DNA from: Leptolyngbyaceae cyanobacterium M33_DOE_097
GTDB lineage: Bacteria > Cyanobacteriota > Cyanobacteriia > Leptolyngbyales > Leptolyngbyaceae
Reading direction: 5' to 3'
DNA length: 64,000 nucleotides
NCBI GenBank assembly: GCA_015296075.1
Contig: DVDV01000016.1
Location: forward strand, 1-64,000
Part shown: positions 6,518 to 17,086 of the stretch, one piece after another
How the letters are laid out: each line of letters opens with the position of its first letter
Numbering within the stretch: position 1 is the stretch's first letter
Program-made: the position numbers and the translations under genes
The notes under the pieces: generated by a model
What the model saw: the letters and a program-made list of their open reading frames with translations, nothing else
Database searches by the model: none
What the model was told of the DNA's origin: nothing

Positions 6518-7612
6518 ATGAAATATCACATCGCGTTTGGGTGCCCGACCAATTTAGAAACCATTGCTCATGAGTCGAGCCAGGGCCGCTGTCCTCGGCA
6601 CGCCATGTTGCTATTACAAGCACGGCTCAATACGACAATGCACGTACCCGAAGCCGATCGCGTGAATTTCACAGATCGGCTCAACGCCAAGCTAATTGGC
6701 ACACCTGCAACCTGGGCAATGGCACGGCGCTTAGCCAAGCAACTCTCTGAAGAAGATGTCGTGATTGCGACCGGAGAAGATATCGGTATTCCGTTAGCGT
6801 TCCTGTTTAGCCAAAAGCGTAATCGTCCAAAATTAGCGATCGTGACCCACAACCTTGATCGTCCCAAAGCACGGCTATTGCTCAAACTCTGGCAGATTCA
6901 CAAACACGTTGACTTGTTTTTGCCACTTTGCACCCCTCAAGCCGATTTTCTCAAGCGGCACCTGAGTGTCCCCGCGTTGCGTGTACAACAACTTCCCGGA
7001 CATGCCGATCAACAGTTTTTCACTCCCGGCTCACCGGCTTCCCTGAAAACACGCCCTACGATCGTCAGTGTCGGCCTAGAGCAACGAGACTACCGGGTAT
7101 TAGCAGAAGCAACGGCTGATCTGGAAGTTGATGTTCGAATCAGTGCTTTTTCACGAGATGCGAAGGCAATTGGACGCGTCTTCCCAAAGGTGATGCCTGC
7201 CAATATGACCCACCAGTTCTATGCATGGCGAGAGCTGGTGCAACTCTACCGAGATGCCGATTTAGTCGTCGTTAGCACTATCGACAACAAATACGCGGCT
7301 GGAGTCACAACCCTGGTTGAGGCGATCGCCTGTCGTCGTCCAGTCATTGCTTCAGCGTCTCAGGGGTTAACCGAATACTTGATACCGGGAATGATTGACT
7401 CCTTTATCCCAGGCGATGCAACGGGACTGAAACAAGCTATCATTCGCCATTTGAGTGATCGCCAACAGGCCGAGGCTAAAGCAGCTCTGAGTTATGACTT
7501 TGCCATGCAACATTACTCAATGGAGCGACACGTCGATGCAATTGTTGAGTCGCTTCGAGTGGTTGGGTTAACTAAGTTTAGGCAACAACTTCAAACCTCA
7601 ATAGGTACTTGA
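6518..7612 (+). CDS. Family 4-like glycosyltransferase
   Basis: This is a probable GT-B-fold glycosyltransferase of 364 residues. The N-terminal half holds AIVTHNLDRPKARLLLKLW and a hydrophobic Rossmann-type pattern. The C-terminal half has the nucleotide-sugar domain: TIVSVGLEQRDYRVLAEA near residue 190, then LYRDADLVVVSTIDNKYAAGVTTLVEAIACRRPVIAS with the conserved E-A-x-A-C-x-R-P-V pattern of group 1 glycosyltransferases. The sugar and acceptor are unknown. A frame extending upstream is not needed. A short hairpin without a T-run (GCGTCA...TGACGC, 7652-7666) lies downstream. Confidence 0.85.
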   Translation: MKYHIAFGCPTNLETIAHESSQGRCPRHAMLLLQARLNTTMHVPEADRVNFTDRLNAKLIGTPATWAMARRLAKQLSEEDVVIATGEDIGIPLAFLFSQKRNRPKLAIVTHNLDRPKARLLLKLWQIHKHVDLFLPLCTPQADFLKRHLSVPALRVQQLPGHADQQFFTPGSPASLKTRPTIVSVGLEQRDYRVLAEATADLEVDVRISAFSRDAKAIGRVFPKVMPANMTHQFYAWRELVQLYRDADLVVVSTIDNKYAAGVTTLVEAIACRRPVIASASQGLTEYLIPGMIDSFIPGDATGLKQAIIRHLSDRQQAEAKAALSYDFAMQHYSMERHVDAIVESLRVVGLTKFRQQLQTSIGT

Positions 7613-7748
7613 GTAGTTGCTGAGAAGGTACGGCATTCGCCTCCTGGCGTCGCGTCATAGTGACGCTCGCTCATTTCGTTTGAGAAATTAGCAAACGGGA
7701 GGTTCAGGTCGCAATTGGCACCGCAACAATCGCTCAGACAATTAATTC

Positions 7749-8153
7749 ATGGCTAGCTCAACCCAAAAGACAGGCAAAATTCGGATCCCATGTGCCTACT
7801 GCCAGGGCAAGGGACGCGATCGCTTCGGAGTCATGTCACCCCTCTCCCAGTGCGCTGCGTGTCATGGCAAAGGCTTTCAGTGGATCGTGCCGCCTGTCGT
7901 CAGATGCGCTTACTGTCATGGAGGTGGAGTCTCCCCTACCGGAACTCGGAGCTATTGTTTAGCCTGTTGTGGCAAAGGGTTGCAGTCGCGGATTGATCGC
8001 ACCGCCTCTTGCCCCGACTGCCACAGCACTGGCAGCAACCCCAACACCGGGATGTATTGCAATCGGTGTCACGGGGCGGGTGTGATTCGTCCTGTAGTGG
8101 ATGTGCCGTTACCGCAGCGATCGCAGACAATAGAGGCTGGTGACTCAACCTAA
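7749..8153 (+). CDS. Stand-alone CXXCXGXG zinc-finger protein overlapping gvpK
   Basis: This small protein (134 aa) consists almost entirely of six CxxCxGxG-type motifs with cysteine pairs at residues 15/18, 35/38, 53/56, 70/73, 88/91 and 104/107. DnaJ has four such motifs binding two zinc ions; six would suit three. No J domain or substrate-binding domain is present. The reading frame runs 14 bases into gvpK, so the two genes are probably translationally coupled. I infer a chaperone or scaffold role in gas-vesicle assembly, but the function is not established from sequence. The motif architecture is plain; the role is not. Confidence 0.85.
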   Translation: MASSTQKTGKIRIPCAYCQGKGRDRFGVMSPLSQCAACHGKGFQWIVPPVVRCAYCHGGGVSPTGTRSYCLACCGKGLQSRIDRTASCPDCHSTGSNPNTGMYCNRCHGAGVIRPVVDVPLPQRSQTIEAGDST

Positions 8154-8619
8154 AAACCTTGTGACTTCTGATCTTCCCGTTCAGGCCATTACGCCCCCTA
8201 AAACATCCAGCAAGGAAGCAGGTTTGGCTCCCTTATTGCTGACCGTGATCGAACTGGTGCGCCAACTCATGGAAGCCCAGGTGATTCGTCGTATGGAGGC
8301 TGAAGAACTCAGTGAAGCAGACCTGGAGCGTGCAGCTGAAAGTCTTCGCAAGTTAGAAGAACAAGTGATTCAGCTGTGCGACGTGTTTGAGATTGACCCC
8401 AGAGACCTCAATATTGATTTAGGTGAAGTTGGCACTCTACTACCCAAAGCAGGCAACTATTATCCTGGTGAGAACTCTGCTAGCCCAACGATATTAGAAC
8501 TGCTCGATCGCCTGCTCAACACCGGAGTCGTCCTCCAAGGCGATGTCGATCTGGGTCTTGCCAATCTCAACTTAATTCACGCCAAACTGCAACTTGTTCT
8601 GACCTCAAAACCGATTTAA
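8140..8619 (+). CDS. gvpK: Gas vesicle protein GvpK
   Basis: GvpK is an accessory protein of gas-vesicle formation. The 159 residues show the family core LLLTVIELVRQLMEAQVIRRMEAEELSEADLERAAESL, then VCDVFEIDP-like and LLDRLLNTGVVLQGDVDLGLANLNLIHAKL segments. The start is GTG at 8140, with AGAGG at 8132-8136 as ribosome site. This start lies inside the preceding zinc-finger gene. gvpF/L and gvpG follow on the same strand. The structural gene gvpA is not in this window. Confidence 0.95.
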   Translation: MTQPKNLVTSDLPVQAITPPKTSSKEAGLAPLLLTVIELVRQLMEAQVIRRMEAEELSEADLERAAESLRKLEEQVIQLCDVFEIDPRDLNIDLGEVGTLLPKAGNYYPGENSASPTILELLDRLLNTGVVLQGDVDLGLANLNLIHAKLQLVLTSKPI

Positions 8620-8665
8620 CTGACTGTTTTTCCCTCATTGCTCAACTTTGGATATTGATTGCCCT

Positions 8666-9409
8666 ATGGGTTACGGACTTTATCTCTACGGCATTTTTCC
8701 CGCACCAGGCCCCCAAGACCTCGCCCTTACCGGACTTGACCAACAGCCCGTGCAAGTCGAACCAGTTGATGACTTTGTCTTCCTCTACTCCGAGGCACAA
8801 CAAGAGCGCTACCTGGCCAGTCGCAAAAATTTGTTGGGGCATGAGCGTGTCTTAGAACAAGCAATGGAAGCAGGTTATCGCACGCTCTTGCCTTTGCAGT
8901 TTGGCTTAATCATCGAAACGTGGGAGGAAGTGATCAAACAACTCATCCAGCCACAAGGTGAAAGCTTAAAGCAACTCTTTACCCGACTCGAAGGGAAGCG
9001 CGAAGTGGGCGTCAAAGTGTTTTGGGAACAGGACAGCGAACTGCAAATGCTGCTCGATGAAAACCCAACCCTAAAATCTCAGCGCGACAGCTTAGAAGGC
9101 AAAAATCTGAGCATGGATGATGTTGTCTCGATCGGGCAAGCGATTGAGCGATCGCTCGAAGCCCGCAAAAATGCCATCATCCAAGCCTTTCGCGACACTC
9201 TGAATCCGCTAGCCAGCCAGATTGTCGAAAACGACGCCATGACCGAAGCGATGATCTACAATGCCGCCTACCTGATCCCCTGGGAAACCGAAGCTGAGTT
9301 TGGTGTTAAGGTGGAGGAGCTAGACCAGCAGTTTAGCGATCGCCTCAAGATTCGCTATAACAGCTTTACAGCCCCTTACAACTTTGCCCAGCTCGACGCC
9401 TTTGACTAA
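8666..9409 (+). CDS. gvpF: Gas vesicle protein GvpF/GvpL family
   Basis: This accessory protein is thought to bind GvpA and take part in vesicle nucleation. The N-terminus GYGLYLYGIFPAPGP and the segment EAGYRTLLPLQFGLIIETWEE are diagnostic of GvpF/GvpL, and the C-terminus (YNAAYLIPWETEAEF) fits the family. The frame opens at TTG 8648, but ATG 8666 begins with the conserved MGYGLYLYGIF and is preferred (247 aa). F and L cannot be separated from sequence alone. It lies in a run with gvpK and gvpG. Confidence 0.93.
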   Translation: MGYGLYLYGIFPAPGPQDLALTGLDQQPVQVEPVDDFVFLYSEAQQERYLASRKNLLGHERVLEQAMEAGYRTLLPLQFGLIIETWEEVIKQLIQPQGESLKQLFTRLEGKREVGVKVFWEQDSELQMLLDENPTLKSQRDSLEGKNLSMDDVVSIGQAIERSLEARKNAIIQAFRDTLNPLASQIVENDAMTEAMIYNAAYLIPWETEAEFGVKVEELDQQFSDRLKIRYNSFTAPYNFAQLDAFD

Positions 9410-9498
9410 ATTCTTGTCCGTCCTGCTTAGGCATGTGAGTTTCCTTTGATTTAACGGATAGACTCGCGCTTTTCAGCCCTTTCGCCCCATCTCTGTCT

Positions 9499-9753
9499 AT
9501 GGTTCTCCGCATCCTCTTCGCTCCGATTACGGGTCTTACCTGGATTGCCGAACAGCTCCAAGAACGAGTTGACGCAGAGATGAACGTCAAAGAAAATTTA
9601 CAAAAAGAACTGCTCGCCTTGCAACTGGCCTTTGATATGGGTGACGTTGAAGAAGAAGAATTTGAAACCCGTGAAGAAGAACTGCTGCTCGCCTTGCAAG
9701 CGATCGACGACCAGGAACGAGCAGAGCGGGCTGCGGAAGCAGAGGCCGAGTAA
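9499..9753 (+). CDS. gvpG: Gas vesicle protein GvpG
   Basis: This is a small accessory protein (84 aa) with the family N-terminus MVLRILFAPITGLTWIAEQLQER. A strongly acidic helical C-terminus (MGDVEEEEFETREEELL) follows. It is the last gas-vesicle gene here; cobJ starts 36 bases later and could be read from the same transcript. gvpA, gvpC, gvpN, gvpJ, gvpV and gvpW were not found in the window. Confidence 0.93.
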   Translation: MVLRILFAPITGLTWIAEQLQERVDAEMNVKENLQKELLALQLAFDMGDVEEEEFETREEELLLALQAIDDQERAERAAEAEAE

Positions 9754-13677: not shown

Positions 13678-14433
13678 TTAACGACGGCGTGGCACTTTGT
13701 TGAGGTAATCAATGTCAGAAGCACGAACGCTTTGAGCGTAGTTGCCCCGAGCCGCGATCGCATTCGCCATATCGGCATACTTGCGGGGGTCGCCTTCGGG
13801 TAAGCGACGCTCTTGGAACTTCTTGGAGTAGAACTTGTCCAAAGTAAAGCGCCAGTCGTACTGAACAGTACCCACTTTCTCGCGAAACTCTTCACCATAG
13901 CGAGGAGTCACTAAGTTATAAGGGCGACCCTCCATCCGCTTGCGCTGATAGGGTACGGTGAAGTCACCAAAGGCTTCGCTGTATTCTTCACTATCTAACA
14001 GAGCGTCAACAAAACCATTGAAACCCTTGGTCGCAATCACAATAGACCACGTAATTTCTTCGTCTTTGTTGTAAGAGTCACGCCCTAAGAAGCGACGCAA
14101 GCAAAGTTGCACGAGACGATAGTTGTTGTTCACTGAAACAACCGCGTCATAGAACCGCTCAGTCTTAGCCAACCCACGCATAAAGTCGCGAACTGTGATT
14201 GCACGGTTCCGCAACTGAGACTCTAAAGCCGAGTTACGCGTGCTCTTGAGAATGACATGCTCGCTGAAGACCTGGCGATAGCACGCCCAAATCAGCTCAT
14301 TGATCTCAACCGAAGAATTGGCGTCTTCTAAGCGATAGATATAAGGGGTATCTTCATTCAGATCAGCCGCACCAAAGCTTTTGACCCGATGGTTTTGAGT
14401 AGACGGTTTGTATGCAAGCAACGGCAGTGCCAT
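13678..14433 (-). CDS. cpcG: Phycobilisome rod-core linker CpcG4
   Basis: This linker attaches phycocyanin rods to the allophycocyanin core. The N-terminal PBS linker domain (about 20-180) shows [52 protein letters not shown] and [22 protein letters not shown]. The C-terminal part is basic and soluble, ending YLNKVPRRR, with no membrane segment, so this paralogue should serve core-bound rods. It has 251 residues. It is the last gene of the operon and the fourth tandem cpcG; the number follows gene order as in heterocystous cyanobacteria. Confidence 0.95.
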
Positions 14434-14558
14434 GCCAGAAATCTCCCTAGAGTGGTGTTAACAAAATCAGAATCTTGAACAGCCGTAGAGTCTTCCCACG
14501 ACTCTACCATTCTTGATGCTTATTATCTCGTAAATTGGCTCTGGATAAGCGATTTCCT

Positions 14559-15290
14559 CTATCCAGCTAAGCTAGCGATCGCCAAGAATAAAGCAATCAC
14601 ACCCAGCCCAGCTACCGCTAAGCCAGAAACCGTTGACCAGTCAGACCGTTGCTGTAGCTTTTCCCAGCTAAACGGCTCAAACTGAGCAAACAGTGGCTCA
14701 AATCGCTCAGTCGGACGATAGCCTTGCCGTGGTAGCTTGTCACGGTAGTCAGAGCCGTAGCGGGGCGTAAAGCTATAGGGGCGCTCAGTCTTTCGTTTGC
14801 GCTGGTAAGGCACCGTGTTATCGCCAAACCAGCGTGTGTACTCTTCGCTATCGATTAGTGCATCGACAAAACCACTCCAACCCAACGTCGCAATTTGCAC
14901 CGACCAGGCAATTTCTTCATCACGACTGTAGGGCGCTCTACCCAACAACCGTTTGAAGGCGATTTCAACCAGACGGTAATTGCTATTTGGCTCGACAACT
15001 AAGCGATAAAACCGCTCAGACTTGGCCAGCCCCCGAATAAAATCACGCACCCGAATGGTCTGATTTTTAAGCTGTGTTTCTAAAGTGATTTGTCGATTGA
15101 AACGGATCGTCTCTTGCTCATTAAAGACCTGGCGGTAAGCCGCCCAAATCAAAGCATCCATTTCATCGACTGAGGTTGCAGCCTCGACGCGATAAATGTA
15201 GGGAGTGTCTTCGTTTTGCTCCGCTACACCAAAGCTACGGACGCGCTGATCTTGCGTCTTGGGGCTGTACTCAAGAATGGGTAATGTCAT
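14559..15290 (-). CDS. cpcL: CpcL-type rod linker with C-terminal membrane anchor (CpcG3 position)
   Basis: The PBS linker domain ([53 protein letters not shown]) is followed by a short linker and a hydrophobic C-terminal segment, [19 protein letters not shown], at about residues 221-241. That anchor is the hallmark of CpcL (CpcG2 of Synechocystis), which builds core-less rod phycobilisomes that deliver energy to photosystem I. It is third of four cpcG genes. In Anabaena 7120 the membrane-anchored paralogue is also the third, which supports the order seen here. Confidence 0.95.
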
Positions 15291-15311
15291 GAAAAACTCC
15301 TTGCCAAAAGG

Positions 15312-16055
15312 CTAACGCAACGGAAACCCTGCCGGAGTGTTGACAGAAGCTAGCACACCCGACGGAGTATCCTTGCGGCTGGTATCTGGAATGCGAATAT
15401 TCGCCGTGTTAACGGTGACTTGCCGTACAGGTGCAACTTGAACAGAACGGGCCATTTCGCGGAAGTTGTTGATGTCGCCCCACTTATAGCGACTTTCTTC
15501 AAGGCGATCGCGCCAATAATCGCCATAGCGAGGAGTGACCAGGTTAAAGGGCCGACCGCGATAACGCCGCCGTTGGTAAGGCACCGTATTGTCACCAAAT
15601 GCCTGCGTATACTCTTCGCTATCTAACAACTCATCCACAAAGTTGTCCCAACCTCGAGTCGCAATCTTGATTGACCAGGCAATTTCTTCGTCTTTGCCAT
15701 AGGGAGCGCGACCCAAAAATCGTTTGAGTGCAATTTCGACCAGTCGGTAGTTAGAGTTTGTTTCTAACACTAATGTCCGAAACGTTTCAGACTTCGCCAA
15801 ACCTCGCACAAAGTCACGCACCGTAATCGCACGATTCTTCAATTGAGATTCGAGGTTTTCCTGGCGGCTTGCCTTCAAAATGACATGCTCACTCAAGACT
15901 TGCCGATAAGCCGCCCAAATCAGGTCTTGAATGGTGGTTTGATCCACGCTGTCTTCCAGGCGATAGATGTAAGGGGTGTCTTCGTTGGGCACCTCATAGC
16001 CTGGAACACGCTGGTTTTGAGAAGATGGAGTGTAAGTAAGCAGGGGAATAGCCAT
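15312..16055 (-). CDS. cpcG: Phycobilisome rod-core linker CpcG2
   Basis: This is a rod-core linker paralogue of 247 residues. The N-terminus [20 protein letters not shown] and the linker domain ([72 protein letters not shown]) are typical. The C-terminus is soluble and polar ([14 protein letters not shown]), which distinguishes it from the membrane-anchored copy 21 bases downstream. It is separated from cpcG1 by about 180 bases that hold a strong hairpin. Confidence 0.95.
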
Positions 16056-16190
16056 AGATCGTGCAGTTTAGAGTGGTTTACGGCTGGAAAGAACAAACCA
16101 AGGTAATGTGGAGCGATCCGAAAACATCCGTGAAAGGCGATCGCGTGATTCCTACGCACTTTCAACAGAGGCAATAGTGGGTGACGAAAC

Positions 16191-16225
16191 GAATGGAGAA
16201 CAGTCAATTTCACAATTCTCCATTC
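16191..16225 (-). other. Perfect hairpin between cpcG1 and cpcG2
   Basis: GAATGGAGAA (16191-16200) and TTCTCCATTC (16216-16225) form a 10-bp perfect stem with a 15-base loop, 13 bases after the cpcG1 stop. There is no T-run after it on the minus strand. It is more likely an RNA-stability or processing element than a full terminator. Confidence 0.5.
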
Positions 16226-16237
16226 AGAATCTCATCC

Positions 16238-17086
16238 TTACTTGCTACCGACCTTTGGATCGCTTGGCAGATACCGATAGGGCAGCGCAACTTTAGTTGG
16301 CTTCACCGTCGGCTTGGGCAGGTCAGAGCTACGGGTCATATCAGGAATCTTGATGCTGCTTGAGGTTGCCCGCGCCACATCGCGCTGAGAGTCAACCTGT
16401 GGCACCAGGGTTTGTCGCGCCATATTTAAAAACATGGCCGGAATTGCCTGACGAATCACGCGCTTATCGAGTTCACCCGCCTGATAAGTCCGCACCTGGT
16501 AGTAAGACCGGGTAGCCAACTCACGCTCTAACAACTTAGTGCGCCAGTAATCGCCATAGCGTGGATTGACCAGGTTAAAGGGGCGCCCCTCTAGACGACG
16601 ACGCTGATAAGGAACAATATCCTCGCCATAGGCAACGGTATATTCTTCGCTATCCAAAATGCTGTCGATAAACCCATGCAGACCCTTCGTCGCTACCACG
16701 ATAGAGAGTGCAATTTGCTCATCTTTACCGTAAGAAGCACGCCCTAAAAACCGCTTCATTGCTAGATCAATCAGGCGGTAGTTCGAGTTGGTATCCCAAA
16801 TGAGTTCACGGAACGTATCGCTTTTGCCCAGGCCACGAATAAACTCGCGCACCGTAATCGCACGGTTTCGCAGTTGAGATTCAAGGAAGGGTTGGCGGTA
16901 GCTCTCAAGGATCAGGTGTTCACTGAAGATTTGGCGATAAGCCGCCCAGATCAAAGCATCCACATCCGCATCCGAGATGCAATCGCGGAGCCGATACATT
17001 TTTGGATCATCTTCGTCCGGCACATCATAACCAGGAACACGCTGATTTTGAGTCTTCGGGTTCACTTTTAAGAGAGGAATGGACAT
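16238..17086 (-). CDS. cpcG: Phycobilisome rod-core linker CpcG1
   Basis: This is the first and longest of the four cpcG paralogues (282 aa), directly after cpcF. The PBS linker domain holds [39 protein letters not shown] and ILDSEEYTVAYGEDIVPYQRRR. The extended soluble C-terminus (about 185-282) is rich in basic residues and ends LPYRYLPSDPKVGSK. The usual DTPYIYRL motif reads DDPKMYRL here, a local divergence. It is probably the main rod-core linker or a condition-specific form. Confidence 0.94.
   Translation of the reverse strand: MSIPLLKVNPKTQNQRVPGYDVPDEDDPKMYRLRDCISDADVDALIWAAYRQIFSEHLILESYRQPFLESQLRNRAITVREFIRGLGKSDTFRELIWDTNSNYRLIDLAMKRFLGRASYGKDEQIALSIVVATKGLHGFIDSILDSEEYTVAYGEDIVPYQRRRLEGRPFNLVNPRYGDYWRTKLLERELATRSYYQVRTYQAGELDKRVIRQAIPAMFLNMARQTLVPQVDSQRDVARATSSSIKIPDMTRSSDLPKPTVKPTKVALPYRYLPSDPKVGSK

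Follow-up and report, generated by a model that had tools for sequence, protein, structure and literature searches.

The 64,000-nucleotide stretch of Leptolyngbyaceae cyanobacterium DNA analyzed here (the window) carries a gene for a small protein with six CxxC motifs (ZF), which belongs to gas-vesicle (gvp) clusters and not to gvpK in particular. We read it as a lineage-restricted, optional accessory gene of cyanobacterial gas-vesicle clusters. The link with gas vesicles is observed directly in the gene neighborhoods; by analogy with known proteins, its product would work at the seeding stage, as a holding chaperone or adaptor made of DnaJ-type zinc ribbons without a J domain, and we put the probability of this reading at about 0.5. 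The motif class and the idea of gvp-encoded chaperones were already known; new is a J-less form with six motifs, whose gene keeps to gas-vesicle clusters in three families. A literature search joining gas vesicles with zinc finger, DnaJ, or CXXCXGXG found no report of such a protein in the titles and abstract starts covered, which represent the literature incompletely.

The zinc-finger gene and its surroundings in the window

The ZF gene (7749..8153, + strand) encodes a J-less protein with six CxxC motifs, a Pfam match, and homologues in seven other genomes. An earlier note on this DNA had described 134 residues with 13 cysteines, as the ORF indeed specifies, and six CXXCXGXG motifs; six CxxC pairs are present (beginning at residues 15, 35, 53, 70, 88, and 104), but the strict CxxCxG form occurs in five, the fifth motif reading CPDCHSTG. 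The ORF is the sole stop-free stretch of at least 50 aa in the 64-kb window with at least three CxxCxG or at least four CxxC motifs. When the ZF residues were permuted, five CxxCxG were reached by 0 of 20,000 permutations and six CxxC by 6 of 20,000. The protein scored 41.8 bits against the Pfam family DnaJ_CXXCXGXG (PF00684; cut-off, 32.7), while the family search returned no J-domain family up to an E value of 1. Assignment to the phage family TIGR02642 was rejected, since its score (29.5 bits) lies far below the cut-off of 101.4.

Directly after ZF, and as the earlier note had proposed, lie genes matching GvpK, GvpL_GvpF, and GvpG above the Pfam cut-offs, i.e., gvpK (8161..8619, + strand), gvpF (8666..9409, + strand; NF052351, 389.9 bits over 350), and gvpG (9499..9753, + strand; PF05120, 77.8 bits over 30.6). 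For gvpF, the longest ORF begins at TTG 8648, and ATG 8666 is favored by its likeness to the G060 start MGNRLYLYGIF. Upstream of ZF is a glycosyltransferase-like gene (6518-7612, from the family search), of a type for which we know of no gas-vesicle link. A promoter scan gave 4 sites against 1.6 expected, all of them consensus matches, one being at 7715-7742, just upstream of ZF. No terminator-like site was found by consensus matching on the + strand between 7300 and 9900, and an Rfam search returned nothing. Farther downstream (13678-17086), we observed four minus-strand frames of 243 to 282 aa that are alike in their first residues and are presumably phycobilisome linkers.

The ZF stop had been placed 14 bases inside gvpK. 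A gvpK start at GTG 8140, that of the first ORF, does allow this overlap, but the relatives favor GTG 8161, located 7 nt past the ZF stop (TAA 8151-8153). In G387, a genome of the window's genus, the gvpK frame has a single ATG, GTG, or TTG from the stop before it up to the conserved AGLAPLL block, and this is a GTG aligned with GTG 8161; G060 also has a GTG at this position, although an upstream ATG is possible there. The starts align as VTSDLPVQ (window), VDPDLPVQ (G387), and VSSPDLPIQ (G060), and from these alignments the overlap in the window is probably not real. True overlaps exist elsewhere, namely, ATGA between ZF and gvpK in G229 and TAATG between gvpJ and ZF in G749. The distance from the ZF stop to gvpK thus ranges from a 4-nt overlap (G229) to 7 nt (window, with GTG 8161) and 61 nt (G749), and in four of eight genomes ZF and gvpK are not neighbors; overlap with gvpK was therefore dropped as a key to ZF function.

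Separately, the C-terminal part of GvpK also matches the GvpA family PF00741 (8488-8604 in the window), and it does so at 48 to 56 bits, well above the cut-off, in all six genomes checked (the window genome, G060, G387, G229, G689, and G701). Judged by these matches, the GvpK of these six genomes looks like a GvpK with a GvpA-like tail.

Occurrence of ZF homologues

Homologues of ZF were found in eight genomes, distributed over three families and two orders: the window genome (labeled G000), G060, G229, G749, G728, G689, G701, and G725. In a phylum sample of 386 genomes, 56 had gvpK and 88 had a match to the ZF protein at an E value of 0.001. Three of these 88 matches (window, G060, and G229) are short stand-alone frames with E values of 1e-34 or better, all directly upstream of gvpK, and the other 85 sit in frames of 360 to 407 aa. 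The 27 long-frame loci that were inspected all combine HPD with three to four CxxCxG, indicating that these 27 are DnaJ. Narrower samples gave a match in 2 of 42 genomes of the window's order, 3 of 148 of the order of G229, 3 of 8 of family f66, and 3 of 14 of family f28. Two larger searches, in which 11 candidates per genome were scored and homologues may have been missed, gave matches in at least 3 of 388 genomes of the window's class (one of them, G534, being false) and at least 6 of 388 in the second sample of G229's order. Some genomes recur between samples, and the counts are given sample by sample.

Several other matches were set aside. The G534 match (E value of 3.8e-7) is a broken zinc-ribbon frame with one internal stop, which we take to be an IS605-type transposase from the way it reads, and the candidate at L064, on a Bacteroidetes contig, proved to be a frame with CAACHGKDG, presumably cytochrome c-like. 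Seven viral contigs match ZF over 32 to 54 residues at 34 to 41%, and a plasmid search for ZF gave no match.

Among the 64 genomes of families f1, f28, and f66, 51 have gvpK and 8 have ZF, all 8 being among the 51. Given how common gvpK is in these families, the co-occurrence of ZF and gvpK is weak evidence for a link, and the case rests on adjacency. Conversely, gvpK genomes lacking ZF number 43 of 51 in the three families and 53 of 56 in the phylum sample; since most gas-vesicle genomes do without it, ZF is not a core factor but an optional one. No homologue was found in G387, which has gvpN-J-K, nor any CxxC-rich frame around gvpK in 29 further loci. These comprised L108 to L110 and 26 of the 30 loci from the gvpK listing for the three families, the remaining 4 having already been covered.

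ZF lies in gas-vesicle clusters, next to gvpK or gvpN

Each of the eight homologues has a same-strand gvp gene as its immediate neighbor, gvpK directly after it in four genomes and gvpN directly before it in the other four, and no intact homologue was found away from gvp genes in these searches. The expectation that homologues would accompany gvp genes was thus borne out in all eight homologue-bearing genomes, but the tie to gvpK in particular was not: ZF follows gvpN in G689, G701, G725, and G728 (order C-N-ZF, with 64 to 391 nt between gvpN and ZF), and on this order, a link to gvpK alone was dropped. In the other four, the order is A-C-N-J-ZF-K-F-G (G060), A-C-N-J-ZF-K (G749), A-C-N-J followed by two inserted genes and ZF-K (G229), and ZF-K-F-G (window). 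The two genes inserted between gvpJ and ZF in G229 (L079:2815-3885) encode a PIN-domain protein and, on the opposite strand, a Uma2 nuclease-like protein. GvpN was identified by TIGR02640 in the window genome, G689, G728, and G749 and by AAA domains with 57 to 58% identity in G701 and G725.

All eight ZF genomes have gvpK, also where ZF is not beside it. In G689 and G701, gvpK and an adjoining gvpA-family gene lie on another contig than C-N-ZF, and in G728, one contig carries both, gvpK at 5.84 Mb and ZF at 1.07 Mb. In G725, gvpK is on another contig, a separation that is uninformative in a 66%-complete draft of short contigs. The window genome shows yet another break. Its run at 7749-9753 lacks gvpA, as had been noted, but the genome does not: a look elsewhere found on contig C405 gvpA (NF006874, 136.5 bits over 100), gvpN (TIGR02640, 399.9 bits over 266.8), a gvpJ-like gene, and a gvpC-like gene with 41% BLAST identity to the G060 gene, for which family searches at an E value of 0.001 gave nothing but a meaningless coiled-coil model. 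The cluster is therefore split, with gvpJ on C405 and ZF-K-F-G on C428, and the break is not at contig edges, as ZF begins 7.7 kb into C428 and gvpJ lies at 4.3 kb of the 34.7 kb of C405. The link between ZF and gvp genes survives different cluster breaks and inserts.

The G387 cluster is broken at another point than that of the window genome: gvpN-J-K stand together at L108 (G387:C51), and the next gene past gvpK is on the opposite strand, so that it is not gvpF. In G255 (L071, C1:657932-662220), gvpK occurs three times at intervals of exactly 2020 bases, separated by gvpF-like genes, so that part of the gvp cluster is repeated in tandem, and G648 has two equal-scoring gvpK copies 137 kb apart on one chromosome (C1, 6093171-6093413 and 6229985-6230227). 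At L022 (G332:C82) and L023 (G177:C1), the frames containing gvpK run to 432 and 448 aa, respectively, compared to the usual 145 to 180, corresponding to a long N-terminal extension or a fusion.

What occupies the slot between gvpJ and gvpK varies. The slot is that of gvpX in Microcystis, according to the part of the source available (PMC6362013), and ZF occupies the same slot in G060 and G749 and, with inserts, in G229. In seven genomes of family f6, this slot contains an ORF of 102 to 108 aa with zero or one cysteine and no CxxC, which by position is probably gvpX. None of these seven ORFs was labeled ZF by BLAST, and ZF was therefore rejected as a GvpX homologue.

Conservation of ZF

The seven intact homologues range from 110 to 164 aa and all have six CxxC pairs. 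The 12 motif cysteines (C15, C18, C35, C38, C53, C56, C70, C73, C88, C91, C104, and C107 of the window protein) are invariant in all seven, while the 13th cysteine of the window protein (C74) is not conserved. Parts of the loops between motifs are also common to the seven (G-x-DR, S-x-x-S, SP-x-G-x-R, and CLAC-x-GK), and the HPD J-domain signature is absent from all of them. The eighth copy, in the G725 draft, is broken into two frames. In the close pair G689/G701, the only unsaturated one, dN was 0.10 and dS 0.26. The ZF proteins of these two genomes (L100:1489-1968 and L101:1357-1848, respectively) also have tandem short KIDSP/NIDSP repeats before the first motif.

The ZF and GvpN trees agree on both forks that GvpN supports (G000 with G060 and G689 with G701), the former having in the ZF tree a support of 88/90, under the starred level. 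With seven rows, this is a weak test, and the agreement fits descent with loss. When modules of two motifs were compared against shuffles keeping C and G in place, the likeness score was reached in 556 of 1,000 shuffles for modules 1 and 3, compared to 3 for modules 1 and 2 and 29 for modules 2 and 3; the likeness of modules 1 and 3 is thus at the level of the shuffles, which falls short of showing a clean triplication.

These data bear on whether ZF is a passenger, inherited together with gvp clusters in a few lineages and having no role in gas vesicles. Its rarity (8 of 64 genomes in three families) and its absence from the window's sister G387 would suit a passenger, as would the split copy of G725, though the latter comes from a 66%-complete draft. 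However, 12 cysteines invariant across three families, dN below dS, and the persistence of ZF beside gvp genes through different breaks and inserts argue against it, and we regard this explanation as quite improbable.

Predicted structure and likeness to known proteins

An AlphaFold2 model built from seven sequences had a mean pLDDT of 71.9, with unreliable ends; an earlier model from three sequences was poor (pLDDT of 47.7), and the seven-sequence model was used for the fold search. Pairing of motifs 1-2, 3-4, and 5-6, read from strand positions and not from coordinates, gives three putative modules. Module 1 (residues 15-42, CAYCQGKG ... CAACHGKG; 7791..7874, + strand) is flanked by predicted strands at 11-14 and 43-46, and module 2 (residues 53-77, CAYCHGGG ... 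CLACCGKG; 7905..7979, + strand) by predicted strands at 50-52 and 78-80. Module 3 (residues 88-111, CPDCHSTG ... CNRCHGAG; 8010..8081, + strand) was placed by motif positions and the Pfam match. With a predicted strand at either end, modules 1 and 2 are suggestive of closed two-motif units.

The best PDB profile match was the cysteine-rich domain of Escherichia coli DnaJ (1exk, E value of 1.8e-5), with which, in its entirety, motifs 3 to 6 of ZF align. Profile matches to KAT6A/B zinc fingers (E values of 0.0005 to 0.07) were taken as chance cysteine likeness. ZF thus shares with DnaJ, a type I Hsp40, the cysteine-rich domain (PF00684 above cut-off) but differs from it in having no J domain, one motif pair more than the DnaJ domain, and a total length of 110 to 164 aa. 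The alignment with the whole DnaJ domain would be expected of a general DnaJ/DnaK helper, or of an assembly factor for something encoded elsewhere, that sits in gvp operons for co-expression only. With no J domain and all eight homologues in gvp contexts, no intact one having been found elsewhere in the genomes searched, we consider such a role very unlikely.

Foldseek gave no match at an E value of 0.001 or better. Among the best six matches, all weak, are anti-TRAP, the zinc domain of DnaJ (twice), and BSD2 (chains 8ilm_N and 8ilb_I), with an E value of 0.37 for 8ilm_N. In the VIA comparison with 55 chains, BSD2 alone was listed (Z score of 2.1, rmsd of 5.3 over 44 residues), a result in which the unlisted state of DnaJ and anti-TRAP excludes nothing. 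BSD2/ZnJ2, which acts in Rubisco assembly, resembles ZF in being J-less, built of CXXCXGXG motifs, and tied to one large protein assembly. It differs in being a plastid protein of plants and algae, whereas ZF is cyanobacterial with a holding activity that we infer, and, in the portion of the source available, ZnJ2 has four motifs where ZF has six (PMC5818400).

Like ZF, anti-TRAP (RtpA) is a small stand-alone protein of CXXCXGXG pairs, and both its profile and fold matches are weak: three ZF stretches matched the model NF058604 at 24.7 bits, below the cut-off of 65, and 3ld0 superposed with an rmsd of 2.1 over 35 columns. It is also far smaller, with 53 residues and two motifs in the part of PMC2896485 available, compared to 134 aa and six motifs. 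These matches raise the alternative that ZF is a zinc/thiol sensor or regulator of gas-vesicle production. Oxidation would strip its modules of zinc, with an effect on assembly or on gvp expression, or the protein would bind and block a ring-shaped partner as anti-TRAP blocks TRAP. An all-cysteine ligand set with 12 invariant cysteines and a rare, optional distribution would suit such a modulator, and GvpN is an AAA protein by family search. Members of the AAA family commonly form rings. Nevertheless, family searches matched ZF to no DNA- or RNA-binding family, and the genes around it are structural and assembly genes rather than known regulators. Furthermore, a cysteine-free ZnJ2 mutant retains holding activity in the accessible part of PMC5818400, so that cysteines need not mean a redox function. 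We hold a sensor or regulator to be the leading alternative to a chaperone, but doubtful.

A putative holding chaperone for gas-vesicle seeding

By analogy with BSD2/ZnJ2, a dedicated chaperone is a plausible role for ZF. As far as the available portion of PMC5818400 goes, ZnJ2 is J-less, holds substrates without DnaK, and brings no gain to refolding by DnaK/DnaJ/GrpE. On this reading, the six motifs of ZF would form three zinc-ribbon modules holding three zinc ions in all, and ZF would need no DnaK in its role of dedicated adaptor or holding chaperone. Its clients might be aggregation-prone GvpA-like proteins, such as GvpJ or GvpK with its GvpA-like C terminus, or GvpN, which ZF would keep assembly-ready during formation of the vesicle seed, much as is proposed for BSD2/ZnJ2 and the large subunits of Rubisco. 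Because the neighbors differ (gvpK or gvpN), no single client is pointed to.

Published work on Gvp proteins gives this proposal a context. The available part of PMC11445434 proposes GvpS, GvpK, and GvpJ for seeding and GvpF as a chaperone of GvpA, describes GvpL and GvpN contacts as depending on or involving GvpK, and reports GvpK to be essential in all four studied types, without a known function. The available part of PMC9501494 states that GvpA-family proteins tend to aggregate without chaperones and that haloarchaeal GvpH prevents aggregation of GvpM. GvpH and GvpF are, like ZF, gvp-encoded helpers with chaperone-like roles; in the portions of these two sources available, they are not described as zinc-finger proteins, and it is by description only that they are set apart from ZF. 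The fuller proposal, of a three-zinc chaperone that is independent of DnaK, serves gas vesicles only, at the seeding step, and is possibly a thiol/zinc control point on buoyancy, we put forward tentatively, as somewhat less probable than the reading given at the outset.

Seed formation is the least understood step of gas-vesicle assembly, and a client of ZF would point to this hard step. An optional assembly helper could also be of use where gas vesicles for imaging are expressed in foreign hosts. For the cyanobacteria themselves, ZF would be a helper added by some lineages, always in or beside the gvpN-J-K region.
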